NCBI GenBank assembly: GCA_903900705.1
Contig: CAIUOG010000176.1
Coordinates: 1 to 64,000, forward strand
DNA from: an uncultured Acidobacteriia bacterium
Lineage (GTDB): Bacteria > Acidobacteriota > Terriglobia > Bryobacterales > Bryobacteraceae
DNA length: 64,000 nucleotides
Reading direction: 5' to 3'
Part shown: piece after piece, positions 15,279 to 32,566 of the stretch
Numbering within the stretch: the stretch's first letter is position 1
Layout of the letters: every line of letters starts with the position of its first letter
Notes under the pieces: generated by a model
Seen by the model: only the letters and a program-made list of their open reading frames with translations
Told to the model about the DNA's origin: nothing
Database searches by the model: none
Translations under genes and position numbers: made by a program

Positions 15279-18200
15279 CTAGGGCTGCACGGAAATCACG
15301 GTGGGATTGCTGGCGACGCCGTTCTGTGTGACCACCAGGGGCAGATCTCCCGCGGCCACGGCGGCCGGAATCTGGAAGTTCATCTGATAGAGCCCCACCA
15401 GTCCGGGAGTCAGTCCGGCGAATAGTATCTGCACCGATTTGCCGTCGAGAGTCAGGGCCGGTGTGGATGCGGGCCTGGCCAGGGGCGCGGAAGGCGACGC
15501 CGCGCCGGTCACGACCGGATTATCGGTATCGCCCATGCCGGCCAGATAGGCCACGATGTATTCACCGGGTTTGGCGGGGGCGGTTTTCGAGACCAGAGAC
15601 CCGTCGGCATGCTGCGCGATGAGTCCGCCATCGGCGAAGGCGGCGAGGCCCGGGATGGCGGAAGTCATCTGGAGCATGTCGGGTGTGGTCAGAGCGTTGT
15701 TCGCCTGCACCACGATCTGGTATTGCCGGTTGGGATCGAGTTCAAACGGAATCTGGGCATTGATCTGCCCCGCGCTGACAAAATAGAGCGGCGCGGCAAT
15801 GCCGCCGATCAGTACGGTGGTGCCTCCGATATTGGTGGGCAGCGGGATCGAGGTTGCGACCGAGGTCTGGGATGCGAGATTATCGCCGTAAATCTGCGCG
15901 ATGGTGCCGGGCGCGAGCGGCGCGCCGAGCTTCGGAGCGAAGCTGTGCAGGGTGCCGTGCGGGGTCAGCACCGGGGCGGAGTTGGGGACCACCGCTCCGA
16001 TAATCTGCGTGGTGGCGGTGGCAAAGCCCGGCGCGGCGGCGCGGGCCTGCACGGTCACCTGACCGGAGGATTTCCGCGGAATCCAGGTTCCGGAATAGAC
16101 GCCGCTGGTGGTGTCCGCCGTCACGAGCGGCAGGGGCGGATCGCCGTTGGAGAATGTCGCAACCACCTGACCGTTGGCGACCGGCGCGCCGCAGTCCGTC
16201 ACCAGTTTTATGGAAAGGATGGTTGGCCAGGAGGTGGGGGCGGAGAAGTTGTTCACCAGACCGGTCTGAGTGGGTGCGAGCGCGGAACCGGCGCAGGCAG
16301 CCCGGGAGATCTCGCCGGACGTCCGGGCGGCGGGAACCGCCTGGGCGGTGCTGCCCTGCACGATCAGCGTCACGTTCACGGTGCGGACGCCGGAACCGGA
16401 AAGCGCGTAGTTCACGCCGCCCCGGTAGATGCCCGCCGGGAGGCCGGCCGGATTGACGGAAACTGTGGACACGCCGGGTGATGACGCCGAGGTGTTGCCG
16501 ACGGAGGGCGTGACCGAAAGCCAGGCGCCGCCGTCCGTTGTGCTGGCGGCTGCCGACCAGGGCACCGCGACGGTGGAACTGGCAAATACCTGGACCGTCT
16601 GTGGCGCGACCACGGCGCTTCCGGAACTCAGGAAAAGGAGGCCGGCGGGTTCCGGGTCCGGACGGATCGGGTCCGTGGTCGCTCCAATGTTCAGTACGAC
16701 CAGGAAGATCTGTGGCGAATTAACCGCTCCCGGCACGGTCACCGTGATGTTCCCGTAGTAGGTCTGCGGAGTCAGGGATACGGCTGCCGGACTGATGGAA
16801 AAGCTCACGACGCCGGGATTCGTGGGCGTTGCGGCGCCACCCGATGCGCCGAGTTGCAGCCAGTCGCCGCCGGCGGTCACCGCGGCGGACCATTCCAGAG
16901 ACGAGCCGCCGGAAACGCTCACCAGAAACGAACCGGAGGGATTGCCGGGCATGCTGCCGGCGGGTGCGCTGAACTGCGTTCCGCCGGGAACCAGGCTCAT
17001 GTTCGCGGTTGTCGCCACGAACAGCGTCACGGGGGCCGAAGCGGGGCCGGCGGACGATGCGATATCCACGGAGGTTTGGTAGAAGCCCGCCGCCAGTCCC
17101 GCCGGGTTCACGGAAACCGGGAACGCCGCCGTGGCTCCGCCCGGGATGCTGCCGTTGCCGCCGGCGCTACACCAGGAGGCCTCGCAGCGGATGGAGGAGA
17201 CACCGAGTGCGCCGCCGCCGCTATTCTGCAGAATCAGGGACTGGCCTGCCGGGGCTGATCCGGGGGACGAGGAAAACGCCAGCACGGAGGTCTTCACGCT
17301 CAACGCGGGCGCGGGGGATGTGACGGTAAGATCCACTGCAACCTGCTGCGGGGTTTTGGTGGCGCAAAGGTCTGAGGCGCAGGCGATCGAAACGACCGCA
17401 TGATAGGCCCCCGCGGGCAACGCCAGAGCCGCGTCGGTCGGGCTTACCTGCACGGCGCCCGGAGTGGTGGCCCCTCCGGAAACGTTCAGCCAGTTCGCTC
17501 CCGCTGAAATGGTTACGGTATAAGGGACTGGCTGCGACACAACTGACGACTGCACGCCCACACTTTGCGCGGGAGGCAGTTCCCCGGTTCCGCCGGAAGC
17601 GGAGAACGACAGGCTGCCCGCCGAGAGAATCAGATTGAGCGCGGGCGGAACGATGGTGACGGTGAAACCGGCATTGGCGGCGGCATTGGCGGAATCGTGA
17701 ACCGTGACGGTAAATGTTGACGTGCCTGCGCCTGAGGGCGTGCCGCCGATGGTGCCGTTGTTCAGAGTCATCCCCGCCGGCAGCGCCCCGGCAGTGACCG
17801 AAAAGGTGTAGGGCGCAATGCCGCCCGAAGCGCTGAGAATCTGCTGCGGATAATCGGTGCCCTGCACGCCCGAAGGCAGAGATCCCGAGGTGATCTGCAA
17901 CTGCGCGGGCTGGATGTTGAGCGATGCCGCGGCGTTGGCGGAGCCGCCGGTCGAATCGGCAACCTGCACGCGGAAGGCAAACGCGCCGGCCTGCACGGGT
18001 ACGCCGGAGAGTTGTCCCCCGGAACTGAGGGAGAGTCCTGTGGGAAGTGTGCCGCCCACTACGCTCCAGGAATAAGGCGGGTTCCCGCCTGTGGCCGTGA
18101 ACGTCTGCGAGTAGCTGGTGTTGACTTTACCATCGGGCGTGGACAGGCCGGAAAGGGAGAGTGGGTTCCCCAGCGAGACGGTCAGGCTGGAGGATGTGCT

Positions 18201-20909
18201 GATGGCGAACCCGGCGGCGTCCCGCACCTGCACCACGATGGTGGAGGCGCCGGCGGTGGTGGGGAAACCCGAAACCACGCCGTTGGACGAGACCGACAGA
18301 CCAGCGGGCAGGCCGGTTGCCGAGTAGGTGTAAGGCGGTGTGCCGCCGACTCCTGAATAAGCCGCACTGAAGAACGCGTTCACGCTGCCAGAGAGATTCG
18401 CGCCGGGGGAGGCGATTCCCAGGACCAGGATGGGGACGCTCACGGTGGAGGTGAGTCCGCCGGAATCGGCGACCTTCACGCTGGCGGTATAGTTTCCTGC
18501 GACGCCTGAGGCCCCGGAAACGGCTCCCGTCGACACTACAGAGACGCCCGGCGGCAAAGCTCCCGAATCGAGCGACCAGGTGTAGGGCGTGGTTCCGCCG
18601 TTCGCCGTCAGGGCGATGCTGAAGCTCTGGCCCTGCAGCACCTCTGTGCTGTGAGGGGGAACACCGATCAGCGCCGGAATCGAGACCTGGAGGCTGAACG
18701 TTGCCTGGGCGGTCTGGCCGGTCACGCTGTCCGTGACGGAAACGGCAATCCGGGGGAACGCGCCACCGGTACCGGGAGTTCCGGAGAGGACGCCGGCGGG
18801 CGACAGTGTCATACCGGGAGGCAGACCCGTTGCCGACCAGGTGAGGTTTGCCGCGGAGTTCGAGCCTCCGGTCGCGGTGAGTGTGATGGGCGCGTAGAGG
18901 GCGTCCCGCAAAGCGTTCGGCAGAGCCACCTGCGAGATCGCGAGCGGCGGCGTGATGAGAATCGAGACGTTGAAGGTGGCGGTGGCGGAGATGCCGTCGG
19001 ACGCGGTAACGGGGAAGGTGTAGGTTCCCGCCGCGGCGGGCGTTCCCTGTAACAGGCCGGTCGAAGTGAGGGTCAGCCAGTTGGGCAGAGCGTTCACCGG
19101 GGCCAGCCATTGGATGGCGGCCTGGGGCGCGCCCGTCCCAGGCGTTACGGTGAGTTGGAATGAGTACGGTAGTCCCACGCTGCCGACCGGGGCTGCCGGG
19201 CTGGCGGAAATAGCCAGGCTGGGGCGGATGCTCAGGTTGACGGTTTGCGAGAGTTGATTGCCGGCCTGATCGGTGACGCGAGCGGTGAAGGAAATGCCGA
19301 CGGCGGTGGCCGGTGCGCCGGACAGAGTCCCGTCCGATCCCAGCGTGAGTCCGGTGCCGTTCAGGCCACTGCCGGAAACGGTCCAGGTGTAACTGCCGTA
19401 GCCGTTACCGGCGGCCAGCGTCTGGTGGTAGGGGACGCCCTGGATCGCAGCCGGGAGACTGGGCGCCGGAAAGCTCAGCGGCAGGTAGGTGACCAGGGTG
19501 GCCGTCTGCCGGGCAGCGGGCGAGGCGGAGTCATTCGCCAGTACCGTGAAGTTCCACGTGCCCGCCCCGTTCGGGATGCCCTGCAGAACACCGGCGCTGG
19601 TCAGGGAAAGCCCGGGCGGCGTGGTTGATCCGGTTGCAAGTGAGAAAGTGTAAGGCCCCAGCGTCCCGCCCTGTGCCACAAAAGCAAAACTGTAGTTCAC
19701 GCCGGTGGACGCAACCGGCAGGGTGGCGACCGAACTGATCGATAAGACCGGATTCACCGTGAGGGTGAGTGTTTTGTCCTTCTGGTTTCCCGCCTGGTCG
19801 GACAGATGAGCGGTGAAGGTGATCTGGCCGGACGCGGTAGGCCTGCCGGTCAGATTGCCGGCCGCGTCGAGTGCGAGCCCGGTACCGTTCAGCCCGTTGC
19901 CGGTCAAGCTCCACGTGTAGCTCCCGCTTCCGCCCGCGCCGGTGAGAGTCTGTGTGTAGGGGTTGCCCTGAATGGCATTCGGCAAAGAGGTGGTGGAAAT
20001 GCTGAGCGGCGTATAGACCTGCAGCGAGGCGGTGAACTGCGCCGGTCGCGAAACATTGTCGCTGGCCTGGAGAGCGAACGAGTAGGTTCCCACACTGGCG
20101 ACGGAACCGTGGAGCACGCCCTGGGAATCCAGTACCAGTCCCGCCGGCAGAGTCGAACTCTGCGGCACGGTCCAGGAGTAGGGCCCGCCGGTCCCGCCGG
20201 TTGCCGCGAGGGTGACCGAGTAACTTTGTCCGGCGGGCGTTGCCGGGAGAGTTGCGCCCGTTGTGATGGAAACGTTGGGGTTCACCACGATGGGCAGGCG
20301 TTGAAATGCGGTGGAAGAAGCCTGGTCGGTTACCTGCACGGTGCAGTCCAGCGTGCCCGCAACCGCGGCGACGCCGCTGAAGTTCCCGGTATTCGAACTG
20401 CTCTGGCTGGTGAAGGAAAGCCCGGAACCATTCAGGCAGGCGGGGTTGGTCAGGTTCCATGTATAGCCTGTGACGCCGCCGGAAGCCTGCACGGTCTGGT
20501 TCACTGCCAGCCCCACCACGGTGGAGGGCAGGGAAGTGGTGAGAATCACCAGCGGAGCGGGATTGATCTTGATGCCGACCAGGGTGGATGCGGTCTGGGC
20601 GGGCGAACTACTGTCGGAGACCTGTGCCTGAAAGTATGTCGTTCTCGAAACCGGGCTGTTGGGGATGCCGCTCAGTGTTCCGGTGGAATCGAACAGGAGT
20701 CCGCCGGGAGGAGGCGTACCCACCACAGTCCAGTTGTAAGGCCCGACGCCGCCGGTGACCGCCAACTGAGCGGAATAGCTCTGGCCGACAGTGGCGTTGT
20801 TGACAATGATGAAGCCGGCTGACGCGCCTGTGATGGTGAGCGCGCCCTGCGCCAGTTCCCCGGCGCCCAGGGCAAGAAGCAGCAAAGCGTGAATCGGGCG
20901 AATGGTCAC
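15279..20909 (-). CDS. giant secreted Ig-repeat (He_PIG-type) protein with Solibacter C-terminal domain
   Basis: An 1876-residue protein starting at the GTG at 20909, with signal peptide MTIRPIHALLLLALGAGELAQG. About a dozen repeats of roughly 85-95 residues share the pattern GGxxPYxWxVxxGxLPxGLxLxxxGxLxGxP...F.V.V.D, which is the putative Ig (He_PIG) domain. Two BACON-like or choice-of-anchor-like stretches follow (about 1090-1550). The final 240 residues form a TIGR03437-type domain (LAPGTIAQIYGDNL, APLYFVSAGQINAQIPF, YIVAYLAGMGDTD). It is predicted to be an adhesin or surface stalk. A PEP-CTERM gene ends 9 bases upstream of its start, so the two are probably co-transcribed. The repeated DNA is degenerate and not a CRISPR array. 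Confidence 0.88.
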   Translation of the reverse strand: MTIRPIHALLLLALGAGELAQGALTITGASAGFIIVNNATVGQSYSAQLAVTGGVGPYNWTVVGTPPPGGLLFDSTGTLSGIPNSPVSRTTYFQAQVSDSSSPAQTASTLVGIKINPAPLVILTTSLPSTVVGLAVNQTVQASGGVTGYTWNLTNPACLNGSGLSFTSQSSSNTGNFSGVAAVAGTLDCTVQVTDQASSTAFQRLPIVVNPNVSITTGATLPATPAGQSYSVTLAATGGTGGPYSWTVPQSSTLPAGLVLDSQGVLHGSVASVGTYSFALQASDNVSRPAQFTASLQVYTPLSISTTSLPNAIQGNPYTQTLTGAGGSGSYTWSLTGNGLNGTGLALDAAGNLTGRPTASGQITFTAHLSDQAGNQKDKTLTLTVNPVLSISSVATLPVASTGVNYSFAFVAQGGTLGPYTFSLATGSTTPPGLSLTSAGVLQGIPNGAGTWNFTVLANDSASPAARQTATLVTYLPLSFPAPSLPAAIQGVPYHQTLAAGNGYGSYTWTVSGSGLNGTGLTLGSDGTLSGAPATAVGISFTARVTDQAGNQLSQTVNLSIRPSLAISASPAAPVGSVGLPYSFQLTVTPGTGAPQAAIQWLAPVNALPNWLTLTSTGLLQGTPAAAGTYTFPVTASDGISATATFNVSILITPPLAISQVALPNALRDALYAPITLTATGGSNSAANLTWSATGLPPGMTLSPAGVLSGTPGTGGAFPRIAVSVTDSVTGQTAQATFSLQVSIPALIGVPPHSTEVLQGQSFSIALTANGGTTPYTWSLDSGALPPGVSVVSTGAVSGASGVAGNYTASVKVADSGGLTSTVSVPILVLGIASPGANLSGSVNAFFSAAYSGVGGTPPYTYSATGLPAGLSVSSNGVVSGFPTTAGASTIVVQVRDAAGFAISTSSSLTVSLGNPLSLSGLSTPDGKVNTSYSQTFTATGGNPPYSWSVVGGTLPTGLSLSSGGQLSGVPVQAGAFAFRVQVADSTGGSANAAASLNIQPAQLQITSGSLPSGVQGTDYPQQILSASGGIAPYTFSVTAGALPAGMTLNNGTIGGTPSGAGTSTFTVTVHDSANAAANAGFTVTIVPPALNLILSAGSLSFSASGGTGELPPAQSVGVQSSVVSQPVPYTVTISAGANWLNVSGGATTPGAVQVSPTDAALALPAGAYHAVVSIACASDLCATKTPQQVAVDLTVTSPAPALSVKTSVLAFSSSPGSAPAGQSLILQNSGGGALGVSSIRCEASWCSAGGNGSIPGGATAAFPVSVNPAGLAAGFYQTSVDIASSAGPASAPVTLFVATTANMSLVPGGTQFSAPAGSMPGNPSGSFLVSVSGGSSLEWSAAVTAGGDWLQLGASGGAATPTNPGVVSFSISPAAVSLTPQTYYGNITVTVPGAVNSPQIFLVVLNIGATTDPIRPDPEPAGLLFLSSGSAVVAPQTVQVFASSTVAVPWSAAASTTDGGAWLSVTPSVGNTSASSPGVSTVSVNPAGLPAGIYRGGVNYALSGSGVRTVNVTLIVQGSTAQAVPAARTSGEISRAACAGSALAPTQTGLVNNFSAPTSWPTILSIKLVTDCGAPVANGQVVATFSNGDPPLPLVTADTTSGVYSGTWIPRKSSGQVTVQARAAAPGFATATTQIIGAVVPNSAPVLTPHGTLHSFAPKLGAPLAPGTIAQIYGDNLASQTSVATSIPLPTNIGGTTVLIGGIAAPLYFVSAGQINAQIPFELDPNRQYQIVVQANNALTTPDMLQMTSAIPGLAAFADGGLIAQHADGSLVSKTAPAKPGEYIVAYLAGMGDTDNPVVTGAASPSAPLARPASTPALTLDGKSVQILFAGLTPGLVGLYQMNFQIPAAVAAGDLPLVVTQNGVASNPTVISVQP

Positions 20910-21952: not shown

Positions 21953-24900
21953 TCAGAATTCCAGCCGCATCAGGAGTTGCAATTGGCGGGCGGTTTCGTT
22001 GAGAGGATTCACCGCCGGGAATCCGGAGGCCGTCCCCTGGCGTCCGTAGGTCGCCAAACCGAAGGTGGGTGACCCCAGAAGATTGTCGGGATTGCCGAGG
22101 TTGGCGTGGTTCAGAAGATTGAATACATCCGCCCGCAGGGTCAGCACCGGGCCTTCGGAGACTTTGAGAAGGCGAACCGCCGGCAGTCGGAAGCTGTGCG
22201 CCAGGGAGATATCGGTGTTGTAGAGACCCGGCCCCCGGAACGCATTGCGACCGGAATTGCCCGGGCGATTCGGATCGGGCATGGCAAAAGCGGCCGCATT
22301 CAGGAGGTACACTCCGCCCGCGCCCGCCGTCGGGTGGGAAAGCACGGCAGAGGAGGGGTTGAGCACGTCGGCCCTCTGGTTATAAAAGGCGCCGCCCGAA
22401 TCCGGGGGGAAGAAGGTTTGCGACAGCACGGTGTAGGGCGTCCCGGTGCGGAAGGCCGCGAGCCAGGAAAGTTTCCAGCCTCGTGCGAGACGCCAGCGGA
22501 CGTCCGGCTGCCAGACGCCCAGCAGAAACAGGTTGTGTCGCTGGTCGAAGGCCGAGTTGCCCCGGTCGCCGTTGCTGTCGAACTGGCGCACGAAGGACGA
22601 CCGCGGGATGTTCGCGCCGCCGCCGTTGACGGTGCTGATGTTCAGATCGGCAAATTCGCCGATCAGCGGATCGCTCTGGTTGTCGATGGAATGGCTCCAG
22701 GTGTATGACCCCTGGAGGAACAGGCTCCGCGTGCGGTAACGGGCCAGCGCGCTCAGCGCATAGTAGTCTGACTTGCCCTGGCCCGAGCGCCAGATAATCT
22801 GCTGCAGCGACGGGTTGTAAGAGCCGGTAAAAGTGCTGAAATCCCGGTTCACCAGATCGGAAGTAATGAGCCGACGCCCCAGCGCGCTGGTGCCGTTGAC
22901 TTCGATACTCAGGTTGTCTCCCAACGCCTGCTGGACGCCCAGGAAGGAGGTCTGCGTATAGCCGTTCTTCAGTTTTGGATCCACCAGTGTCAGCGGTTCC
23001 TGGCTGATCGCCACCGGGTTTACGCCCGTGAAGGTCTGTAACTCCGCCGTCACCGGCTGCAGGTAGTTGGTTGCCTTGGCGGTCGAGAGGCCGTAAAGAT
23101 TCAGATTGATGCCGTTCAGCCGCGTATTCTGCCAGAGGTTATCGAAAAGGCGGTCGTAGAAAATGCCGAAGCCGCCGCGCACCAGGGTTTTCGATTTGCC
23201 CAGCGGATCCCAGGAGAAGCCGAGCCGGGGTCCGAAATTGCCGTTGTCGGAGCCAAAGAGTTGCTGGTTTCCCGCGCCCGGGAGGGTCAGCGTTGCGGCG
23301 GCGATGCGCGCCGGGAAGTTCGCGCCGTTGCCCAATACCACCTGGCCGTCTTTATTTGTTCCCGTATTGCCGGGCGAACCGAAGCTTTCGTAGCGAAGCC
23401 CGAAGTTGAGCGTCAGCCGAGGCGAAACGCGGAAGCTGTCCTGCACGAAAAAGTAACTCTGGTTCTGCCGGTAGCTGCGGTCATAGGCCGGCTGCGCGAG
23501 GTTCTTAGCCAGCCGGTCCACGCCCATGTAGAAGTAGGACGGCGTGTCGTTGGCGAAGAACAGCAGTCCCTGAAACTGGTATTCTCCGTCGCGCAGTTCC
23601 GTGAGGTAGCCGCTGTTGAAACGGAACAGGCCACCGGCGCCCGCCGTGATCACATGCCGGTTGCGCGTCCAGACCATGCTGTAAATCAGCTCGGGAGAGC
23701 GGTTGTGGTTCCGGTAGGAGTAGAGCGCCTGGCTGCCCGGCAGGGTAACGCCATCGCTGGAACCGAGAGTCGGGATCTCGGGATGCGCCCGGTCCCACCA
23801 TAGATTGTCGTCGCTGTAGCTGACCTTGAACTCGCTGGTGAGGCGGGGCGTCCAGGAGCGTTGCCAGTTTACGGCGGCGCTGGTGGTGTGCTGGTTGATG
23901 CCGGAGGTGAAGTCCGGATACGGCGTCCAGAAGAAATTCGGTTCGCCGAAGCGGGCGAGCGAAACCCGGCCGGTGAAATGATCTTTTCCGTTTTTCGGGG
24001 AATAGTCGAAGCGCTCGAGCGCAATGGTCCGGTCCACCACCACGGGCGGCGCCACCGTGTAAGCCGCCGTCAGCGCGAGGGACTTGATGACCGGTCCCGG
24101 ATACTTTTCGAGCAACTGCCGGGAAAGCCTGGTACCGGGAATGTTCAGCGCCGGAATGAAGTTGGTGGTGGGCAGTTTGAAGGTTTGGGGGGCGCCGTTG
24201 CCGTGGCTGAGCAACTGTTCAAAAGAGCTGGAAAAGAAGAGGCGGTTGCGCAGCGCGCCTTTGGGCACAACCGGTCCGCCGGCCTGATACCCGAACTGGT
24301 TCTCTTTATCCTGACGGCGGCCCACACCGGAGAGATTGTCGCCAAAATCGGCGCTGTTCAGCTTCGTATTTTTGAAGTACTCGTAGAGCACGCCGTGGTA
24401 GGCGGGGCCACCGGCGCGCGTGACAGCATTGGCGATAAAGCCCGCGGTGCGGCCATACTCCGCGGAGTAATTATTGGTTGAAATCCGGTATTCCTGGACG
24501 GCTTCCGGCGCGACCGGGTTCAGGGGGCCGGTGACCAGATAGTTGTTATTCTCGACGCCATCCAGCAGGTAGTTCGATGCGGAGGGCCTCTGCCCGGCCA
24601 CGCTGATGCCCAGGCCGCGACCCGTGCCGCTGTCCGCTCCCACCGTGGGCAGGCCCACCAGGATGGAGTAAACGTCGCGCCCGGGCAGGGGGAGATCACC
24701 AATCTGCACCGGGTCGATGACATAAGAAGATGAGGTGTCAAGCGTTCCCCGCTGGCCCTTCTGGGATTCGAAAGAACCCGAGCGGCTGCTGTCCACGTCC
24801 GGTCCGTAGAACGTCACGATGGTTTTCGTGCCGGGCAAAAACACGCTGCGATACTGCCCGGATTCCCACACGTCGCTGAGGGGACGGAGCCGGAAGTCCA

Positions 24901-25207
24901 GCTGAATCCGTCCCGCGACGGGGAGTTCCACCTGCTGCAACTCCTGGGGTTGGTAGTTGTCACCCGCCGCGCGGACCGTGTAGGTTCCGGCGGAAAGCAG
25001 GGGAAGGAAGTAGTAGCCCAGCGAGTCGCTCCGGAGTGTTCCGGAGGCTGAAAGTGTGCTGCTGGTGTAGGAAACAGAAGCGCCCGCGACAGGTCGTCCG
25101 GTAACCGAGTTCAGGATTTGTCCGGAGATCAGGCCCTGCGTTGTCTGAGCCTGCCCTGTGGCAAACGCGGCGAGGGCCGCCATCGAAAGCCGGAAGAGGC
25201 TGCGCAT
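21953..25207 (-). CDS. Oar-like TonB-dependent outer-membrane receptor with carboxypeptidase-regulatory N-domain
   Basis: A 1084-residue protein from the ATG at 25207 (MRSLFRLSMAALAAFATGQAQ signal). A carboxypeptidase-regulatory-like Ig domain (GLISGQILNSVTGRPVAGASVSY) comes first. It is followed by a plug domain (SVAGQRPSASNYLLDGVENNN, EAVQEYRISTNNYSAEYGRTAGFIANAVTRAGG) and a large beta-barrel ending in QLLMRLEF with a terminal aromatic. This architecture is common and expanded in acidobacteria. The ligand is unknown, and transport versus adhesion cannot be decided. It is separated by 74-143 bases from its neighbours, depending on the start chosen for the PEP-CTERM gene. Confidence 0.92.
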   Translation of the reverse strand: MRSLFRLSMAALAAFATGQAQTTQGLISGQILNSVTGRPVAGASVSYTSSTLSASGTLRSDSLGYYFLPLLSAGTYTVRAAGDNYQPQELQQVELPVAGRIQLDFRLRPLSDVWESGQYRSVFLPGTKTIVTFYGPDVDSSRSGSFESQKGQRGTLDTSSSYVIDPVQIGDLPLPGRDVYSILVGLPTVGADSGTGRGLGISVAGQRPSASNYLLDGVENNNYLVTGPLNPVAPEAVQEYRISTNNYSAEYGRTAGFIANAVTRAGGPAYHGVLYEYFKNTKLNSADFGDNLSGVGRRQDKENQFGYQAGGPVVPKGALRNRLFFSSSFEQLLSHGNGAPQTFKLPTTNFIPALNIPGTRLSRQLLEKYPGPVIKSLALTAAYTVAPPVVVDRTIALERFDYSPKNGKDHFTGRVSLARFGEPNFFWTPYPDFTSGINQHTTSAAVNWQRSWTPRLTSEFKVSYSDDNLWWDRAHPEIPTLGSSDGVTLPGSQALYSYRNHNRSPELIYSMVWTRNRHVITAGAGGLFRFNSGYLTELRDGEYQFQGLLFFANDTPSYFYMGVDRLAKNLAQPAYDRSYRQNQSYFFVQDSFRVSPRLTLNFGLRYESFGSPGNTGTNKDGQVVLGNGANFPARIAAATLTLPGAGNQQLFGSDNGNFGPRLGFSWDPLGKSKTLVRGGFGIFYDRLFDNLWQNTRLNGINLNLYGLSTAKATNYLQPVTAELQTFTGVNPVAISQEPLTLVDPKLKNGYTQTSFLGVQQALGDNLSIEVNGTSALGRRLITSDLVNRDFSTFTGSYNPSLQQIIWRSGQGKSDYYALSALARYRTRSLFLQGSYTWSHSIDNQSDPLIGEFADLNISTVNGGGANIPRSSFVRQFDSNGDRGNSAFDQRHNLFLLGVWQPDVRWRLARGWKLSWLAAFRTGTPYTVLSQTFFPPDSGGAFYNQRADVLNPSSAVLSHPTAGAGGVYLLNAAAFAMPDPNRPGNSGRNAFRGPGLYNTDISLAHSFRLPAVRLLKVSEGPVLTLRADVFNLLNHANLGNPDNLLGSPTFGLATYGRQGTASGFPAVNPLNETARQLQLLMRLEF

Positions 25208-25343
25208 AGAAACCAGAGTATACGAGCGAATCGCCCCGGACAAAGAACCTTTTCTGTCGCCACGCGCGACGAACCGGGAAACCCGTCTCCCATTTTGTGG
25301 TCGCGGGGTAGTAAAATTCAGACAGTTCACGCGAAGGGTCCTG

Positions 25344-27266
25344 ATGAAACGCAACTGGAAAAGGCTCGCTATTTTCGCCGCGATCGCGCTCAGCAGCGTT
25401 GTTCTGACGCTGCTGATGGCGAATATCGAGTTCTTTCAGATTGTTGATCTGAAAGCGCAGGACGCGCATTTCGTGCTCCGCGGCGCGATTCCCACGAAGA
25501 ATATCGAACTCATCGAGATCGACGATAAAACCAAAAGCCGGTACCCGGAACTGTTGTCCTTCTGGCATCCCTATTATGCCGACGCGATGCGCGGCGCGCT
25601 GATGGGGGGCGCGAAAGTCATGGTCATCGACGTGGCGTTCGGCACCAACGTGGCAAAGTATGACCCGACGGCGGATTCGGTTCTGGCGGGTGCTTTCGCG
25701 GAAGTCGCCACGCAGATGCCGGTTGTCTGCGCCTTTGTTCCCGCTTCCACCGAGCAGCAACAGAACCCGGATTTCATGGTGCCGCTGAACATGGCGGCCT
25801 CCGCGTTCGGGCTTTCCGCGTTTCCCAACCTGACGTCGGATGGCGACGATTTTGTCCGCCGGCAGGTCCTTTTTGAAACGCCCAAGGCCGGTGTTCCGTT
25901 CGAAGCTCTCACGCGGGGCATGGCTCTGCGGGCGGCGGAGAAATTTCTGGGCAAGGACGCCGAACTGCGGGATGGCAAGCTTTTCCTGAATGGCCGGGAG
26001 GTTCCGATTGACACCGACCGGCAGATCATTGTGAACTACGCCGGTCCGGCGGACACTTTTCCGCGCGTCTCTCTGTTCGACGTGGTGCAGGCCTACCGGG
26101 ACGGCAACAAGGCCCAACTGGAGAAATGGCTGAAAGGGAAGGCCGTGCTGATGGGGACCGACGACATTGGTGACCGTCGCGATACGCCCTTCTTCACCGC
26201 CTTCGCCGGCAGCGGCAAATGGACCACTCCCGGGGTGGAAGTGCACGCGAACGTCCTCCGGACGCTGCTGGACGGCGATTTCCTGAAGCCCGTGCCGGAG
26301 TGGGCCCGAGTCTGCGCCATGTCGCTGACCGCGGTTTTGTGCGTCCTTGCCATCACCGCCTTCCCCTCGGTTCCGTTGACGGCTCTCGGTTCGTTTTTGC
26401 TGCTGATGAGTCTGCTGGCCGGAACCCATCTGCTGTTCCGCGCGGGCTGGCTGCTTTCGACCTCGCAACTGGTCCTGGCCTTCGGCTGGGCACTGCTGGG
26501 CGGCGTGATTTACCGTTTCGCCACGGCGGAAAAGAAGAGCAGCTTCTTCAGGAACGCGGTGGCCCTGTTCGTCGGCAAGCAGGTTGCCAGCGATCTCGAA
26601 GCGAAGCAGGAGATTGAACTGACCGGCAAACGGCAGATTGTCACCATCCTGTTCACCGATATCCGTGGTTTCACCGCGTTCTGCGAATCGAAAGACCCGG
26701 CCGTGGTCGTCGAACTTCTCAACGTTTACATGTCGAAGATGGTGTCCATCATCGTGAAGAACGGCGGTCACGTCAATAAGTTCATTGGTGACGGTATTCT
26801 GGCGGTCTTTTCCGATGACGACCCTGGAGCGAAACCGGGCGACCACGCACTCCGTACCACTATTTGCGCCGCGGAAATGGTGAGTGAAGTGGTGGGGGAA
26901 TTCCGGACCGGCGCGGGTTTCCACACCGGCGAAGTGGTTATCGGCAACGTCGGTTCCAGTGACAAGCTCGAATTCACGGTTCTGGGCAATACTGTGAATC
27001 TTGCTTCCCGTCTGGAAAGTCTCAACAAGGACCAGCGTTCCCGATTGTTGATGAGCGCGGAATCGCGTGAAATGTTGAAGGGGGCAATCGACACTGTTTA
27101 CTTGGGTGCGGTCCCTGTGAAAGGGAAAACGGAGAAAATGAAGCTGTACTCCGTGCCCTCGCTCTTTGATGAGGAGCGCCTGGCGGAAATCCGGGCGGCG
27201 AATCCTCAGGAAGAGGGCGAGACAGAGTCCCGCGCTGAGCAGTATACGGAGAAGGTCTCATCATGA
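25344..27266 (+). CDS. CHASE2-domain class III adenylate cyclase, membrane-bound
   Basis: A 640-residue protein from the ATG at 25344, with GAAGGG 6 bases upstream; an earlier ATG would overlap the divergent receptor. A first membrane helix (residues 8-25) is followed by an extracytoplasmic CHASE2 sensor (about 26-310), three closely spaced membrane helices (about 315-395) and a class III cyclase domain (about 430-600). The metal-binding Asp residues (FTDIRGFT, GDGILAVF), the base-recognition Lys (NKFIGDG) with Thr in EFTVLGNTVN, and the transition-state Asn and Arg (NTVNLASR) are all present, so it should be active. Lys/Thr favours ATP over GTP. It is the first gene of an operon whose next gene overlaps by ATGA. 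The signal sensed by CHASE2 is unknown. Confidence 0.93.
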   Translation: MKRNWKRLAIFAAIALSSVVLTLLMANIEFFQIVDLKAQDAHFVLRGAIPTKNIELIEIDDKTKSRYPELLSFWHPYYADAMRGALMGGAKVMVIDVAFGTNVAKYDPTADSVLAGAFAEVATQMPVVCAFVPASTEQQQNPDFMVPLNMAASAFGLSAFPNLTSDGDDFVRRQVLFETPKAGVPFEALTRGMALRAAEKFLGKDAELRDGKLFLNGREVPIDTDRQIIVNYAGPADTFPRVSLFDVVQAYRDGNKAQLEKWLKGKAVLMGTDDIGDRRDTPFFTAFAGSGKWTTPGVEVHANVLRTLLDGDFLKPVPEWARVCAMSLTAVLCVLAITAFPSVPLTALGSFLLLMSLLAGTHLLFRAGWLLSTSQLVLAFGWALLGGVIYRFATAEKKSSFFRNAVALFVGKQVASDLEAKQEIELTGKRQIVTILFTDIRGFTAFCESKDPAVVVELLNVYMSKMVSIIVKNGGHVNKFIGDGILAVFSDDDPGAKPGDHALRTTICAAEMVSEVVGEFRTGAGFHTGEVVIGNVGSSDKLEFTVLGNTVNLASRLESLNKDQRSRLLMSAESREMLKGAIDTVYLGAVPVKGKTEKMKLYSVPSLFDEERLAEIRAANPQEEGETESRAEQYTEKVSS

Positions 27267-30079
27267 AGAAGTCGCTGTTCCAATCCGCGTTGGTTGCCGC
27301 CGGCCTTTTGACGGCAGGCCTGACCGCGAGTCTGCAGGGCGCGGCGCCGGTCCGTGAGGAACCGGTCGGCCTGGTTTTGGCCGCCGGGGGAGGGAAGGTG
27401 CTCCGCGCCGGCACCGAAACGCCGCTGGCGGTTCGCTCCGGCGACATTCTTTTTTCCGGTGATTCCCTGAAGTCGGACGCCGGCACGACAGGCTTTCTGT
27501 ACTGCCCCAGCAAAACGTCCCAAATTCTGGAACAGGGCGGCGAGGTGCTGCTGGACTCGAAGGCGCTCAAAGTCAAAACAGGCAAAATGGGTGTTTCGAA
27601 ACCCGTCAATGCCTGTTTCCTGCCGCAGGTGGTTCGCGTCGCGGTTGCCAGTCAGCAGCATTACGGGGTGAGCATGACGCGCGGTCTGGCAAAGCCGGAA
27701 GGCGACGTGATCGCGTTCGATGCATTGCCCGCCGGCGTGCGTGGCCAGTTGGCGCCTCTTGAAGAAGGCCTGCGCGCGAACCCGAACGATGCGCAGATGC
27801 TGGTGGAGGAAGCCTCCGTATTTGACCAGAACAAACTGGAATCGAACGCGCTCGCCGCCTATCGCAAAGCCTCTGTCGTCTGGCCGGACGCCGTCTGGAT
27901 CCGCGGTCGCATCTTCGAACTCGAAGAAGCTCTGGCGACGCAGGCCGCGATCAAAGCAGCCGCAATTTCTCCGGACGCCAAGACCTACGCGATGATCGTC
28001 GGGGTCAGCGAATACCAGAAGCTTCCGAAGGATCTCTTCCTCCAGTTCCCGGCGGCCGACGCGAAATCCTTCGCCGACCACCTTGCCAGTCCGCGCGGCG
28101 GCGGTGTGCCGCAGGATCAGATGCTGGTCCTGACAAACGAACAGGCCACCACAGCCGCCCTCCGCAACGCTTTTCAGACTTTTCTGAAGGCCCGGCCGGG
28201 TAAGAAAGACACCGTGTTCATCCTGCTCGCCGGTCACGGTACAGTGGATTCGCGCGGCGCCTTCATCCTGACCAACGATAGTGACCCGCAGGACCTGTCC
28301 TCCACCGCCATCCCGATGTCTGAGATCCAGGCGCTGGTGGAGGAAGAGCTTTCGAAGGTGGGCCGGGTGGTGCTGCTCGCCGATATCTGCCGCGCCACCA
28401 CCATCGGCAATATTAAGAACGGTTCCATCGGTAGTGCGGTTGAAAAGCTGGGCCAGGCGCCCGGCGAAATGCTGGGCCTGGTGGCCTCCCGTCCTAAAGA
28501 AGTCGGCCTCGAAGGCACGCAGTTTGGTGGCGGCCATGGCGCGTTCACCTACTCCATTCTGCGCGCGCTTGAAGGCAGTGCGGACGCCAATAAAGACCAT
28601 TCGGTCACGGCGGGTGAGTTCATCGACTTTGTTCGCAGTGACGTGGCCAGCCAGACCGGCAACAAACAACATCCCCGCGACTTCGGCAATCTGGAAAACG
28701 CCACGCCCCTGGCCGATCTTTCGAAGGCGGGAATCAACATCACCCGTTTCCGGACCCTGTACGACTCCCGCAATGGCGGCCCGCTGTTCCTCGCTTCCGC
28801 CGCAGACGTTCCGCCGGTGAGCCAGCAGGCGCAGCGCGATATCGACGCCTTCCAGACGGCGTTGAAGGACGGCAAGTTGCTGCCATCCGAACCCGGCAGC
28901 GCCTTCGGCATGATCGACAAACTGCGCGCCGAACTCCAGCCGGAGCTGATGCTCATCCAGGAGAATTCCCTGCGGGTGGCGCTCGAAAACAAGGCGCAAC
29001 AGGTGCTGCTCCACTATCTGGCGGGCGACCAGAACCCCACCTCGAAGAAGGAATTCGACGCCGGTTCGCAGTACATGGAAGCGGCTATGAAGCTTACGCC
29101 CGAGTCCCTGTACCTGCAGGGGCGGGATTCTTTCTTCGCGGGGCGCGCGCTGCTTTTTGAAAAGCAGTTCAGCAAAGCCGCCGACCTGCTGGAAAAGTCT
29201 GTCCGCATCGATCCCGGCGAGGCCTACGGCTACAACGCCCTCGGCATTGCTTATCTGGAACAGGCGGATTTCGCCAAGGCTATTCCGGCCTTCCGGGATG
29301 CTGTTCACCGTGCTCCGAACTGGTCGTATCCGCTGCATAATCTGGCCGTTGCTTCGGTGGAGGCCGGTGATTCCGAGGGAGCAATCCGGGCTTACCAGCA
29401 GGCCATGAAGCTGACCCCGCAGTACAGCTATCTCCCCTACAATCTTGGCCTTGTCTATCAGCGCACCAATCGCAAACGCGAGGCGGAACAGGCTTATCGC
29501 CGCGCTGCGGAAGTGGCGCCGGATTCGGCTGAGCCGCTGAATGCGCTTGGCAGTCTGAAAGCGTCGGAAGGCAAAAATGCGGAGGCCGAGAAGTTCTACA
29601 AATCGGCCCTCGAAAAGAATCCGAACCTGCTGCCGGCCCGCCACAATCTGGCGCTGCTGCTTTCGACCACGAAGGGCCGGGAAGCCGAGGCCATCGAGCT
29701 CTGGAAGAAGAATCTGGCGGATAAACCGGACTTCCTGCCATCCCGTCTGGCGCTCGCGGAACTTCTCGTTAAAAGGGGCGATTCGGCCGGCGCGGTGGAG
29801 CAGTACAAAGAAGTTGTCGCGGCCCGACCGGAATATGTGGCGGCGCGCGTAGCACTTGCAGGAGAATTAACCAAGGCTGGCCAGAAAGAGGCGGCGCTCG
29901 ATCAGCTGCGCGCCGCCGTGAAGCTGGATGGACAGAACGGTTCGCTCTGGGAACAGTTGGGCGATCTTGAACTCGCGCAGAAGAATATGAAAGAATCGCG
30001 TGAAGCTTACGCGAAGGCCCTGCAACTCGGGGCGGTAAAAGCAGACCGCAAACGTCTCCAGACTAAGATGGCATTTTAA
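27263..30079 (+). CDS. caspase-like (peptidase C14) protein with FecR-like N-domain and TPR tail
   Basis: A 938-residue exported protein (signal ending SLQGAAP). Residues about 30-125 resemble a FecR-type domain (GGGKVLRAGTETPLAVRSGD, then KTSQILEQGGEVLLDS). The caspase-like domain spans about 235-490 (TYAMIVGVSEY start) with catalytic His325 in LLAGHGTVDSRG and Cys376 in LLADICRAT, the usual His/Cys dyad positions. At least eight tetratricopeptide repeats follow (about 590-930), probably for protein binding. Translation is coupled to the cyclase (ATGA) and to the hydrolase (TAATG). The signal peptide implies that protease and TPRs are periplasmic or lipid-side, while the cyclase product is cytoplasmic, so any direct gating by cAMP is not obvious. 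Proteolytic activity is inferred. Confidence 0.88.
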   Translation: MKKSLFQSALVAAGLLTAGLTASLQGAAPVREEPVGLVLAAGGGKVLRAGTETPLAVRSGDILFSGDSLKSDAGTTGFLYCPSKTSQILEQGGEVLLDSKALKVKTGKMGVSKPVNACFLPQVVRVAVASQQHYGVSMTRGLAKPEGDVIAFDALPAGVRGQLAPLEEGLRANPNDAQMLVEEASVFDQNKLESNALAAYRKASVVWPDAVWIRGRIFELEEALATQAAIKAAAISPDAKTYAMIVGVSEYQKLPKDLFLQFPAADAKSFADHLASPRGGGVPQDQMLVLTNEQATTAALRNAFQTFLKARPGKKDTVFILLAGHGTVDSRGAFILTNDSDPQDLSSTAIPMSEIQALVEEELSKVGRVVLLADICRATTIGNIKNGSIGSAVEKLGQAPGEMLGLVASRPKEVGLEGTQFGGGHGAFTYSILRALEGSADANKDHSVTAGEFIDFVRSDVASQTGNKQHPRDFGNLENATPLADLSKAGINITRFRTLYDSRNGGPLFLASAADVPPVSQQAQRDIDAFQTALKDGKLLPSEPGSAFGMIDKLRAELQPELMLIQENSLRVALENKAQQVLLHYLAGDQNPTSKKEFDAGSQYMEAAMKLTPESLYLQGRDSFFAGRALLFEKQFSKAADLLEKSVRIDPGEAYGYNALGIAYLEQADFAKAIPAFRDAVHRAPNWSYPLHNLAVASVEAGDSEGAIRAYQQAMKLTPQYSYLPYNLGLVYQRTNRKREAEQAYRRAAEVAPDSAEPLNALGSLKASEGKNAEAEKFYKSALEKNPNLLPARHNLALLLSTTKGREAEAIELWKKNLADKPDFLPSRLALAELLVKRGDSAGAVEQYKEVVAARPEYVAARVALAGELTKAGQKEAALDQLRAAVKLDGQNGSLWEQLGDLELAQKNMKESREAYAKALQLGAVKADRKRLQTKMAF

Positions 30080-30912
30080 TGGCAGAACCCAGGGTACGGC
30101 TCAGGTTCTGGGGAGTGCGGGGCTCGACCCCCACTCCCCAGGTGGAAAATCTTACTTTCGGCGGCAACACGTCCTGCGTCGAGATTCGAACGGCGTCGAA
30201 CGACGTCCTCATTTTTGACGCCGGCAGTGGTATCCGGAATCTGGGCCAGTCCCTCATGAAAGAAGCGGCGGGACAGCCTTTGAACGTCAAACTCTTCCTC
30301 ACCCACTTTCACTGGGATCACATCCAGGGTCTGCCTTTTTTCATCCCCATCTACGGTCCGAAGAATCACGTCTCGTTCTTTACCGGAATTGAAGGACGGC
30401 CGCTCCAGGAAACGCTGGAAGGCCAGATGGCGAAGCCGTATTTCCCCGTCGACTTCGATCAGGTGGCTGCGCGCCGCGACTTCAACACCATCGAACCCGG
30501 TGGCCATGTGCAGGCTGGCGGGGTCAAGATCATTCCGTTTCCGCTGAACCATCCGCAGAATGCCGCGGGCTACCGGATTGAAGCCGATGGAGCCGTAATC
30601 GTCTATGCGACTGACTACGAACACGGCCATCCAAAGCTCGATAACGTCCTTCGCGACTACGCTCAGGGCGCCGACATCCTCATCTGCGACTCCCAGTACA
30701 CTCCCATTGAATATGAGAAGCACAGGGGTTGGGGCCACAGCACCTGGCTCAATGGTGTGCACGTTGCCCGCGACGCGAAAGCGAAGCAATTGTTCCTCTT
30801 CCATCACGACCCCACCCACGACGACCAGCAGATGATGCGCATCACCGAAGATGCCCGCATGCAGTTCGAGAACACCACCGCCGCCTGGGAAGGGTTCGCC
30901 GCCGTTTTATAG
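30079..30912 (+). CDS. MBL-fold metallo-hydrolase (PhnP/COG1235-like)
   Basis: A 277-residue cytoplasmic protein whose ATG overlaps the preceding TAA. The N-terminus RLRFWGVRGSTPTP and GGNTSCVEIR are signature segments of a metallo-beta-lactamase-fold group often labelled class II cyclic-phosphodiesterase-like or PhnP-like. The metal ligands are THFHWDH (HxHxDH), the His of FPLNHPQN, the Asp of YATDYEHGH and the His of FLFHHDPTHDD. Genomic coupling to an adenylate cyclase makes cyclic-nucleotide or phosphodiester hydrolysis a reasonable guess, which would end the signal. The family also includes nucleases and phosphonate enzymes, so the substrate is uncertain. Confidence 0.9.
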   Translation: MAEPRVRLRFWGVRGSTPTPQVENLTFGGNTSCVEIRTASNDVLIFDAGSGIRNLGQSLMKEAAGQPLNVKLFLTHFHWDHIQGLPFFIPIYGPKNHVSFFTGIEGRPLQETLEGQMAKPYFPVDFDQVAARRDFNTIEPGGHVQAGGVKIIPFPLNHPQNAAGYRIEADGAVIVYATDYEHGHPKLDNVLRDYAQGADILICDSQYTPIEYEKHRGWGHSTWLNGVHVARDAKAKQLFLFHHDPTHDDQQMMRITEDARMQFENTTAAWEGFAAVL

Positions 30913-30988: not shown

Positions 30989-31336
30989 ATGAAATACGCC
31001 ATGCTGATCTACACAGACCAGGCCGCTGAGAGTTCCCGGACGGCGGAGGAACAACAGGCCATAATGGTCGGCTATCACGGTTTCACCACCGAAGTCCGGG
31101 AAAAGGATCTCTACAAAGCGGGTGAGGCGCTTCACCCCACTACCTCCGCCACCACCGTGCGGGTACGTGACGGTCGCACCGTGACCACGGACGGCCCCTT
31201 TGCTGAAACCAAAGAACAACTGGGCGGCTTTTACATTCTGGACTGCAAAGATCTGGATGAAGCGATCGAGTATGCCGCGAAGATTCCCGGCGCGGCGCAT
31301 GGCTCGGTTGAGGTGCGGCCCATCGTGATCTGGTAG
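30989..31336 (+). CDS. YCII-related (DGPF-domain) protein
   Basis: A 115-residue dimeric ferredoxin-like-fold protein. The start is supported by AAGGAG upstream of the ATG. The N-terminus MKYAMLIYTD and the central TTDGPFAETKEQLGGFYIL are the hallmark DGPF motif. The family function is unclear. These genes are typical targets of ECF42 sigma factors encoded beside them, and one follows here after 21 bases. Confidence 0.92.
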   Translation: MKYAMLIYTDQAAESSRTAEEQQAIMVGYHGFTTEVREKDLYKAGEALHPTTSATTVRVRDGRTVTTDGPFAETKEQLGGFYILDCKDLDEAIEYAAKIPGAAHGSVEVRPIVIW

Positions 31337-31357
31337 CGGGGCGCGTTCCGGAGACAG

Positions 31358-32566
31358 ATGCCGCCGGCTATTGACGAAGTCTTTCACAACGAATCGGGCC
31401 GGATCCTCGCTTCACTGATCCGGCTCTCCGGTTCGTTCGACCTTGCCGAGGAGGCCCTGCAGGACGCTTTTACCCAGGCCTGCCAGACCTGGCCGGAGCA
31501 GGGAACTCCCCTCAACCCGGCCGCGTGGCTGCTGACCACGGCGCGCCGCAGACTGATCGACGCCGTCCGCCGACAGCGTACCCGGACTGACAACGCCGCC
31601 GCGCTCACCCACGACATCCTCCTGCGTCAGGAAAGCGAATCTCCGGACATGCCAACCGTACTTCAGGACGACCGTCTGCGTTTGATTTTCACCTGCTGCC
31701 ATCCGGCGCTCAACCGTGATGCCCAGGTGGCCCTGACTCTCCGGACCCTGGGCGGGCTGACTACTTCTGAAATCGCCCGGTCGTTCCTTGTCCCGGAACC
31801 CACCCTGGCCCAGCGAATCGTCCGCGCGAAGAACAAGATTCGCGACGCCCGTATTCCCTACGAAGTCCCGACGCGCGATCGTCTGCCCGAACGTCTGGCT
31901 TCAGTTCAGACCGTGATCTATCTCATCTTCAACGAGGGGTACGCCAGTACGTCCGCCAGCAGCCTGGTTCGGGGCGATCTGTGCGGCGAAGCCCTCCGGC
32001 TGGGCCGGGTTCTCTGTGAACTGCTGCCGGAGGACACGGAAAACCGGGGGCTGCTCGCCCTGATGCTGCTGCAGGATTCCCGCCGCAATTCGCGCACCGG
32101 CCCGAACGGCGAACTCGTGACGCTGGAAGACCAGGACCGCACTCTCTGGAATCAGACTGCGATCCGGGAGGCCCTGGTGCTGTTGCCGCTCTCTGGCGGC
32201 CCCTATTCATTGCAGGCGCTGATCGCGGCCACGCACGCACGCGCCGCATCGCCCGCGCAGACGGACTGGCGTCGCATTGCGGCACTTTATCAGGAACTGC
32301 TGCAACAGATTCCCACCGCCGTTGTCGCGCTGAACCACGCGGTTGCCATCGCCATGGCCGAGGGTTACGAGCAGGGACTTGAACTCATCGACCGCATTCC
32401 GGAACTGGAGAGCTACCACCTGTACCACGCCGCCCGCGCGGATCTGCTGCGCAGACTGGAGCGCCCGGCAGACGCGGCGGCGGCTTATCGCCGCGCATTG
32501 ACGCTGGTCACCAACCCGATTGAACGCGAATATCTCAGCCGGCGTCTTCGACAACTCGCGCCGTAA
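31358..32566 (+). CDS. ECF42-type RNA polymerase sigma factor with C-terminal TPR-like extension
   Basis: A 402-residue protein. Regions sigma2 (EEALQDAFTQACQTWPEQGTP) and sigma4 (TLRTLGGLTTSEIARSFLVP) are followed by a long helical C-terminal extension containing FNEGYASTS and the TPR-like end AADAAAAYRRALTLV. ECF42 sigma factors carry this extension, lack a classical anti-sigma factor and control adjacent DGPF genes, matching the YCII gene just upstream. The last 32 bases overlap the convergent xseA gene. It probably autoregulates the pair. Confidence 0.93.
   Translation: MPPAIDEVFHNESGRILASLIRLSGSFDLAEEALQDAFTQACQTWPEQGTPLNPAAWLLTTARRRLIDAVRRQRTRTDNAAALTHDILLRQESESPDMPTVLQDDRLRLIFTCCHPALNRDAQVALTLRTLGGLTTSEIARSFLVPEPTLAQRIVRAKNKIRDARIPYEVPTRDRLPERLASVQTVIYLIFNEGYASTSASSLVRGDLCGEALRLGRVLCELLPEDTENRGLLALMLLQDSRRNSRTGPNGELVTLEDQDRTLWNQTAIREALVLLPLSGGPYSLQALIAATHARAASPAQTDWRRIAALYQELLQQIPTAVVALNHAVAIAMAEGYEQGLELIDRIPELESYHLYHAARADLLRRLERPADAAAAYRRALTLVTNPIEREYLSRRLRQLAP

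Follow-up and report, generated by a model that had tools for sequence, protein, structure and literature searches.

The 64,000-nucleotide stretch analyzed here (the window), from an uncultured Acidobacteriia bacterium of the family Bryobacteraceae (assembly GCA_903900705.1, contig CAIUOG010000176.1, positions 1 to 64,000), carries three plus-strand genes encoding a CHASE2 receptor adenylate cyclase, an exported caspase-like protein with tetratricopeptide repeats (TPRs), and a hydrolase with the metallo-beta-lactamase (MBL) fold (Table 1). The overlaps between adjacent genes measure 4 bases and 1 base, the latter at a TAATG junction where the caspase stop codon TAA (30077-30079) and the ATG of the MBL gene have one base in common. 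A first-pass annotation of the window had described the ATGA and TAATG overlaps together with intact catalytic residues. We confirmed the three-gene operon with exact coordinates, and the catalytic residues are intact in all three proteins and unvarying across the alignments of orthologues from the genus. The order cyclase-caspase-MBL that it had treated as a unit is kept on a single strand at all 14 genus loci with an uncut contig, the window included, mostly with overlaps of 4 bases and 1 base. Among 41 relatives searched, cyclase orthologues were found in 17 other genus genomes at 59–77% identity and in another family at 53%. The operon is beyond chance because overlap and order have been kept at this divergence of the cyclase, and because the cyclase and caspase genes of other genera, at about 50% identity, still overlap by 4 or 8 bases. 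The conserved neighborhood reaches past 25344-30912 to a divergent gene for an Oar-like TonB-dependent outer-membrane receptor.

Three proteins of one operon

The CHASE2 domain of the cyclase scores 106.9 bits against a Pfam cut-off of 26.3 and is preceded by one transmembrane segment and followed by two or three hydrophobic ones, as hydropathy places such segments at residues 8-26, 323-341, 347-365, and about 371-394. CHASE2 receptors hold their sensor outside and their cyclase inside, and the hydropathy of this receptor agrees with that arrangement. The catalytic domain unites in one chain two metal-binding Asp residues, the substrate-binding Lys and Asp/Thr, and the transition-state Asn/Arg, as in class III cyclases of the homodimeric type. 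The six cyclase residues listed in Table 1, the full set of a self-sufficient enzyme, are unvarying in the 15 sequences of the genus alignment, and their spacing matches the canonical spacing of Anabaena CyaB1. The Lys/Thr pair indicates ATP as the substrate, in line with the earlier proposal of an adenylate-type receptor cyclase, and cAMP would be the product. Class III cyclases number only three in the 6.1 Mb of the window genome, which also has 18 matches to cyclic-nucleotide-binding (cNMP-binding) domains in about 16 genes. A plasmid search at a threshold of 1e-40 did not find the cyclase on plasmids. The second CHASE2 protein of the genome (L050:9083-12255, G000:C66) overlaps a following gene that starts like a response regulator.

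The caspase/TPR protein consists of a signal peptide, a beta domain, a helical segment, a caspase fold, and a TPR array. The catalytic dyad His325 and Cys376 is unvarying in 13 genus sequences and present in 20 of the 20 wider sequences that reach that far (23 in total), being kept down to about 47–50% identity, and hydropathy indicates a signal peptide in essentially every orthologue. A fold search matched the caspase domain to metacaspases and MALT1 with Z-scores of about 18–21, whereas phmmer gave no match against the PDB sequences. The NF047832 model of EACC1-associated caspases scores 73.8 bits, under its curated cut-off of 140 bits. Pfam predicts no cNMP-binding domain in the protein. 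DUF7354 was found in the N-terminal domain of nine of ten members (best 8e-4), which has no significant Pfam family. A FecR domain was considered for this N-terminus, which has a FecR-like pattern and position and an all-beta model, and was rejected since none of the ten members matched PF04773 at an E-value of 5. The full architecture of the protein is rare: in 396 genomes of the phylum, it occurs only in the window genome and one genome of the same family, the other matches being caspase domains alone. A stand-alone exported caspase of 275 residues lies elsewhere in the window genome (L172:6224-7051, G000:C113) and is a close paralogue of the operon caspase domain. At L070, L073, and L074, the caspase/TPR gene is directly followed by a similar gene for a caspase alone.

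In the MBL protein, the metal ligands HxHxDH (76-81), H158, D179, and H242 are unvarying in 14 genus sequences. The motif [T/S]HxHxDH is the signature of atypical class-II phosphodiesterases (PMC9293780), and the protein combines it with the PF12706 fold, with a Trp at one of the x positions in place of a small residue. Its top fold matches include RNase Z (Z 26.7) and YhfI of Bacillus subtilis (Z 26.6), an enzyme that prefers cAMP and cGMP (PMC9117128), and Apyc1 is among its Foldseek matches.

Table 1. Features of the operon and its divergent neighbor (window positions), and related operons in other genomes (locus names)
Feature	Position or loci	Strand	Evidence
Oar-like TonB-dependent outer-membrane receptor, divergent	21953..25354	-	OMP_b-brl_4 5.1e-106, CarboxypepD_reg 1e-14, Plug 7.5e-07 (Pfam)
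CHASE2 receptor adenylate cyclase, class III, 640 aa	25344..27266	+	Pfam CHASE2 1.7e-30, Guanylate_cyc 2.5e-22
CHASE2 sensor domain, predicted periplasmic	25401..26336	+	Pfam residues 20-331; own-genome match at the same coordinates; hydropathy
Class III cyclase catalytic domain	26634..27152	+	D439, K479, D483, T545, N552, R556, single chain
ATGA overlap	27263..27266	+	Cyclase stop TGA 27264-27266 over caspase ATG at 27263
Exported caspase-like/TPR protein, 938 aa	27263..30079	+	Peptidase_C14 3.5e-11 plus TPRs (Pfam)
Predicted signal peptide, about residues 1-27	27263..27343	+	Hydrophobic N-terminus, pattern kept in orthologues
N-terminal beta domain, conserved SQQHYG motif	27344..27697	+	AlphaFold strands 34-106; weak DUF7354
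Caspase (C14) domain; His325 28235-28237, Cys376 28388-28390	27986..28675	+	Pfam residues 242-471
C-terminal TPR array	29138..30037	+	Pfam and curated-family profile matches
MBL-fold hydrolase, 277 aa, probable cyclic-nucleotide phosphodiesterase; THFHWDH residues 75-81 (30301-30321)	30079..30912	+	Lactamase_B_2 (PF12706) 2.9e-18
SH3-M48-CHASE2-cyclase-MBL operons	L199, L200, L201, L203, L205, L207, L208, L209, L218, L225, L227		

Two older gene pairs and a neighboring receptor

We scanned 84,980 species genomes for the caspase protein and obtained 35 loci, all from Bryobacterales-like metagenome-assembled genomes (MAGs) that are titled Acidobacteriota, bar one probably mislabelled bin. The cyclase gene lies directly upstream of the caspase gene in 33 of them, down to about 40% identity, and the two usually overlap by 4 or 8 bases. 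The MBL gene follows the caspase gene directly only within the genus of the window. The conservation of the gene order beyond the genus holds for the cyclase/caspase pair and not for the position of the MBL gene. In the MAG CH-Jul18-89 (L083:8222-12739), cyclase and caspase/TPR protein are fused into a single 1505-codon open frame. More than one base is missing at the junction, where a stretch with the ATG overlap that is found in L079 and L086 has been deleted, and the fusion has an internal hydrophobic segment exactly at the position of the former signal peptide. The MAG SRVP_25 has one copy of the caspase/TPR gene with a cyclase (L069) and another that is divergent to an Oar-like receptor gene with no cyclase between them (L067:203-6103). 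L086 is a contig titled Bordetella parapertussis that carries the operon; its flanks are common to the Bryobacterales loci L079 and L083, and it probably represents a mislabelled bin.

We traced the MBL family through the 396 phylum genomes and scanned the flanks of most matches. Strong matches (E <= 1e-30) were found in only 81 of the 396. At 11 loci from several Acidobacteriota families, the MBL gene immediately follows a CHASE2-cyclase gene, with no caspase, and all 11 encode, in this order, an SH3 protein, an M48 peptidase, the CHASE2-cyclase, and the MBL protein. These operons are apparently undescribed. A homologue of MscS-type channels lies 3' of the MBL gene in ten of the 11, and both of the channels checked in Pfam have a cNMP-binding domain. 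The cyclase follows the MBL gene at L187 (a CHASE2-cyclase, in the order MBL, CHASE2-cyclase, M48 peptidase) and at L206 (an FHA-GAF cyclase). The MBL orthologue is nearby but placed differently in L068, L079, L083, and G227: at L068, it directly follows a different cyclase, of the FHA type, and at L079 and L083 it stands beside an oxidoreductase gene. The L079 oxidoreductase (L079:12688-14280) is NDH2-like, has a C-terminal cNMP-binding domain, and adjoins the MBL gene. Outside the phylum, a CHASE2-cyclase gene on an Ensifer plasmid overlaps an MBL homologue, with divergent genes for FecR and TPR proteins, and alphaproteobacterial homologues in Rhizobium, Mesorhizobium, and Phyllobacterium lie near cyclase, cNMP-binding, or Crp-type genes; in Mesorhizobium, a gene for a cNMP protein lies 7 bp upstream of the MBL homologue. 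One homologue (L118:4186-6396) contains MBL, response-regulator-like (REC), cNMP-binding, and GGDEF domains in a single protein. Other homologues are MBL-REC fusions, one of them in the window genome (L126).

With three class III cyclases in 6.1 Mb, the probability of 13 or more adjacencies between MBL and cyclase genes among 70 is far below 1e-10 under independence, with the adjacencies counted per genome and not per independent event. Parsimony on the MBL tree gave about ten changes of the linkage state, with modest supports on the deep branches; the linkage to cyclases has therefore arisen or been lost repeatedly. Since the window genome has so few class III cyclases, this linkage is not a chance one. 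Given its recurrence with cyclase and cNMP-binding genes elsewhere, we dropped the idea that the MBL gene is a casual, genus-specific passenger. The three-gene operon is two older pairs joined, cyclase/caspase and cyclase/MBL.

The real start of the divergent receptor is probably near 25210, at a signal peptide beginning MRSLFRL, so that receptor and cyclase genes would share an upstream region of about 130 bp. Each genus genome has one full-length receptor orthologue (in fragmented assemblies, cut where contigs end), and another was found in G027. The receptor occurs in the same genomes as the cyclase plus G016, where cyclase matches are only distant. At 18 of the 35 loci, it stands in divergent orientation to the cyclase/caspase pair or in its vicinity. 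On the other side, a YCII-family gene and a gene for an extracytoplasmic function (ECF) sigma factor (DUF6596) lie directly 3' of the MBL gene at 30989-32566 of the window, and likewise downstream in L064, L080, and L081; they probably form a separate operon. Farther off, 15279-20909 on the minus strand encodes a secreted protein of 1876 residues with about 11 putative immunoglobulin-like (He_PIG) repeats.

A possible transenvelope cAMP switch

We favor, with moderate confidence, a transenvelope cAMP switch in which the caspase serves as periplasmic input or partner and the MBL protein as reset. The CHASE2 receptor in the inner membrane, with its sensor outside and its cyclase inside, would make cAMP. 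The exported caspase/TPR protein might act in the periplasm beside the sensor domain and set the activity of the receptor, probably joined in this by the Oar-like outer-membrane receptor. It could do so by cutting a protein that acts as signal or partner, or by serving as scaffold or ligand. In the cytoplasm, the MBL protein would hydrolyze cAMP and thereby reset the switch, and cAMP might act through the cNMP-binding proteins that the roughly 16 genes elsewhere in the genome encode. We infer cAMP as the product of the cyclase, the substrate of the MBL protein, the periplasmic position of the caspase, the direction of signal flow, the role of the receptor, and the steps before and after cAMP.

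The caspase most likely resides on the periplasmic side with the CHASE2 sensor. Because its signal peptide is conserved, and because the sensor is outside and the cyclase inside, it is probably with the sensor and not with cAMP. We also counted in favor of a periplasmic caspase the copy at L067, which is divergent to the receptor gene without a cyclase. The M48 operons place another exported peptidase in the corresponding position, suggesting that proteolysis could be part of the input. For the MBL protein, the linkage to cyclase and cNMP-binding genes, the class-II phosphodiesterase motif, and the presence of YhfI among the top folds make a cyclic-nucleotide phosphodiesterase the best reading, most likely as an off-switch that degrades cAMP; the earlier suggestion that this enzyme ends a cyclic-nucleotide signal thus gains support from gene context. 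CHASE2 receptor cyclases might even take their input from exported proteases in general, with a caspase in Bryobacterales and an M48 peptidase in other Acidobacteriota sensing or cutting a signal of the envelope, cAMP as the relay, and MBL phosphodiesterases of one family as the reset, a generalization that we consider tentative and somewhat short of probable.

The first-pass annotation had assigned the caspase the opposite role, that of a proteolytic effector deployed by cAMP in a stress-sensing module, with the MBL enzyme ending the signal. In other systems, caspases of bacteria do act as effectors, and the shared operon, its conserved order, and the intact dyad would suit such a role. However, the conserved signal peptide, placing the caspase on the sensor side, puts the protease and cAMP on opposite sides of the membrane, the caspase has no predicted cNMP-binding domain, and the L083 fusion has its caspase after a hydrophobic segment behind the cyclase domain. 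We therefore regard the effector role as quite unlikely, and we found no evidence for the label "stress-sensing". Alternatively, the caspase/TPR protein might be catalytically competent but mainly a structural periplasmic ligand or scaffold for CHASE2, as FecR, TPR, or LysM proteins may be for the CHASE2 receptors that they accompany. The large TPR array and the N-terminal beta domain agree with this possibility, as do the FecR and TPR genes beside the cyclase/MBL pair of Ensifer and the BiofilmReg operon (PMC5192318), in which a CHASE2 histidine kinase has a LysM-FecR protein as its neighbor. A scaffold alone is somewhat unlikely in our view, given an invariant dyad over such a range of identity and a peptidase of another family in the corresponding place of the 11 related operons. 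The operon also calls to mind the antiphage cyclic-nucleotide systems of the Pycsar type, whose signals are cleaved by phage MBL enzymes (PMC9117128): the cyclase domain matches the PADLOC models of PycC (1.3e-23) and the caspase matches a PADLOC caspase model. The similarity is confined to these two matches, whereas the CHASE2 receptor architecture, the adenylate-type K/T residues, the lack of a PycTM or PycTIR effector gene among the three operon proteins, and a synteny that is stable across the genus and beyond all speak otherwise. We rejected a Pycsar or other defense system as highly improbable.

Several observations weigh against the proposed switch. The signal peptide and topology were assigned from hydropathy, without a dedicated predictor; the caspase has no adjacent cyclase at two of the 35 loci (L067 and L076); and the fusion, known from one MAG, is a hint only. 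TonB receptors of this type are numerous, and in 10 of 18 other genus genomes the receptor gene is located away from the operon, so its membership in the neighborhood, though likely, is looser than that of the operon genes. Most other Bryobacterales loci have no MBL gene next to the cyclase/caspase pair, so this core pair can function with none in cis. The MBL protein scores only 67 bits with the NF041851 model of cyclic-nucleotide phosphodiesterases, far under the cut-off of 400, its fold fits RNase Z and YhfI about equally, and by sequence it is closer to RNase Z, its best curated family score at 80.8 bits. It might accordingly be an RNA- or metabolite-processing hydrolase, similar to RNase Z or PhnP, that shares the operon by chance; no protein elsewhere in the genome passes the RNase Z cut-off, and RNase Z structures are its joint best fold matches. 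Yet the score is well below that cut-off (292.95 bits), and the match comes in two pieces that skip model positions 151-215, where the tRNA-binding arm would be expected. The patchy spread of the family is unlike that of a housekeeping enzyme, and its linkage to cyclases and cNMP-binding proteins is repeated. For these reasons, we consider a processing hydrolase unlikely.

Relation to known systems and implications

The closest precedent for an outer-membrane receptor signaling to CHASE2 cyclases is found in Sinorhizobium meliloti, where the outer-membrane protein NsrA is needed by the cyclases CyaK, CyaD1, and CyaD2 to sense an extracellular protein signal and cAMP acts via a CRP-type regulator (PMC7529298, PMC13001267). 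The two pathways have in common that their adenylate cyclases are inner-membrane CHASE2 receptors. As for the outer membrane, NsrA is a predicted beta-barrel, whereas the candidate here is an Oar-like TonB-dependent receptor, and the accessible parts of those papers describe no caspase or MBL protein. The BiofilmReg operon of Burkholderia (PMC5192318) similarly encodes a CHASE2 receptor with a LysM/FecR-type partner, but its output runs through a histidine kinase and response regulator instead of cAMP, and LysM-FecR stands in place of the caspase/TPR protein. A link between a caspase domain and a CHASE2 sensor is seen in the metacaspase-CHASE2 fusion of Trichodesmium erythraeum (PMC3501461, PMC2853523), which is one protein with a predicted cytoplasmic caspase and no cyclase. 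Bacterial caspase operons in general (PMC3501461) share the HC-dyad caspase domain with TPRs, and Lactamase B is among the commonest enzymes in them, while the accessible part of that survey mentions no cyclase operon of this kind. The MBL protein has the fold, the PF12706 domain, and the [T/S]HxHxDH motif of YhfI, Rv1339, CpdA (PMC9293780), and Apyc1 (PMC9117128), but differs from them in its low sequence similarity, a score below the curated phosphodiesterase cut-off, and the bulky Trp in the motif. The SH3-M48 operons resemble the present one in tightly joining the genes for an exported peptidase, a CHASE2-cyclase, and a member of this MBL family; they differ in having an M48 metallopeptidase for the caspase/TPR protein and a cNMP-binding channel gene of their own. 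In open-licence papers, we found no report joining CHASE2 with a caspase and an adenylate cyclase, or CHASE2 with an MBL fold, which is weak evidence of absence.

In summary, the operon appears to be a variant of CHASE2 receptor-cyclase signaling for which we found no earlier description in the open-access literature. The tension between an exported caspase and cytoplasmic cAMP, pointed out in the first-pass annotation, is best resolved by a caspase upstream of or beside the cyclase. Gene context provides strong evidence on the substrate of a widespread, unassigned MBL family, and the operon offers candidate partners for CHASE2. Bacterial caspases have mostly been discussed as cytoplasmic effectors of death or defense. 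The translationally coupled operon of these soil Acidobacteria suggests that cAMP signaling can receive input from a bacterial caspase, instead of the caspase executing the orders of cAMP. By placing a caspase on the side where a receptor cyclase senses, it provides a case in which a role of caspases as signal input can be tested. If this is true, the caspase would be a periplasmic signaling protease that acts ahead of a second messenger; we found no report of bacterial caspases in such a role.

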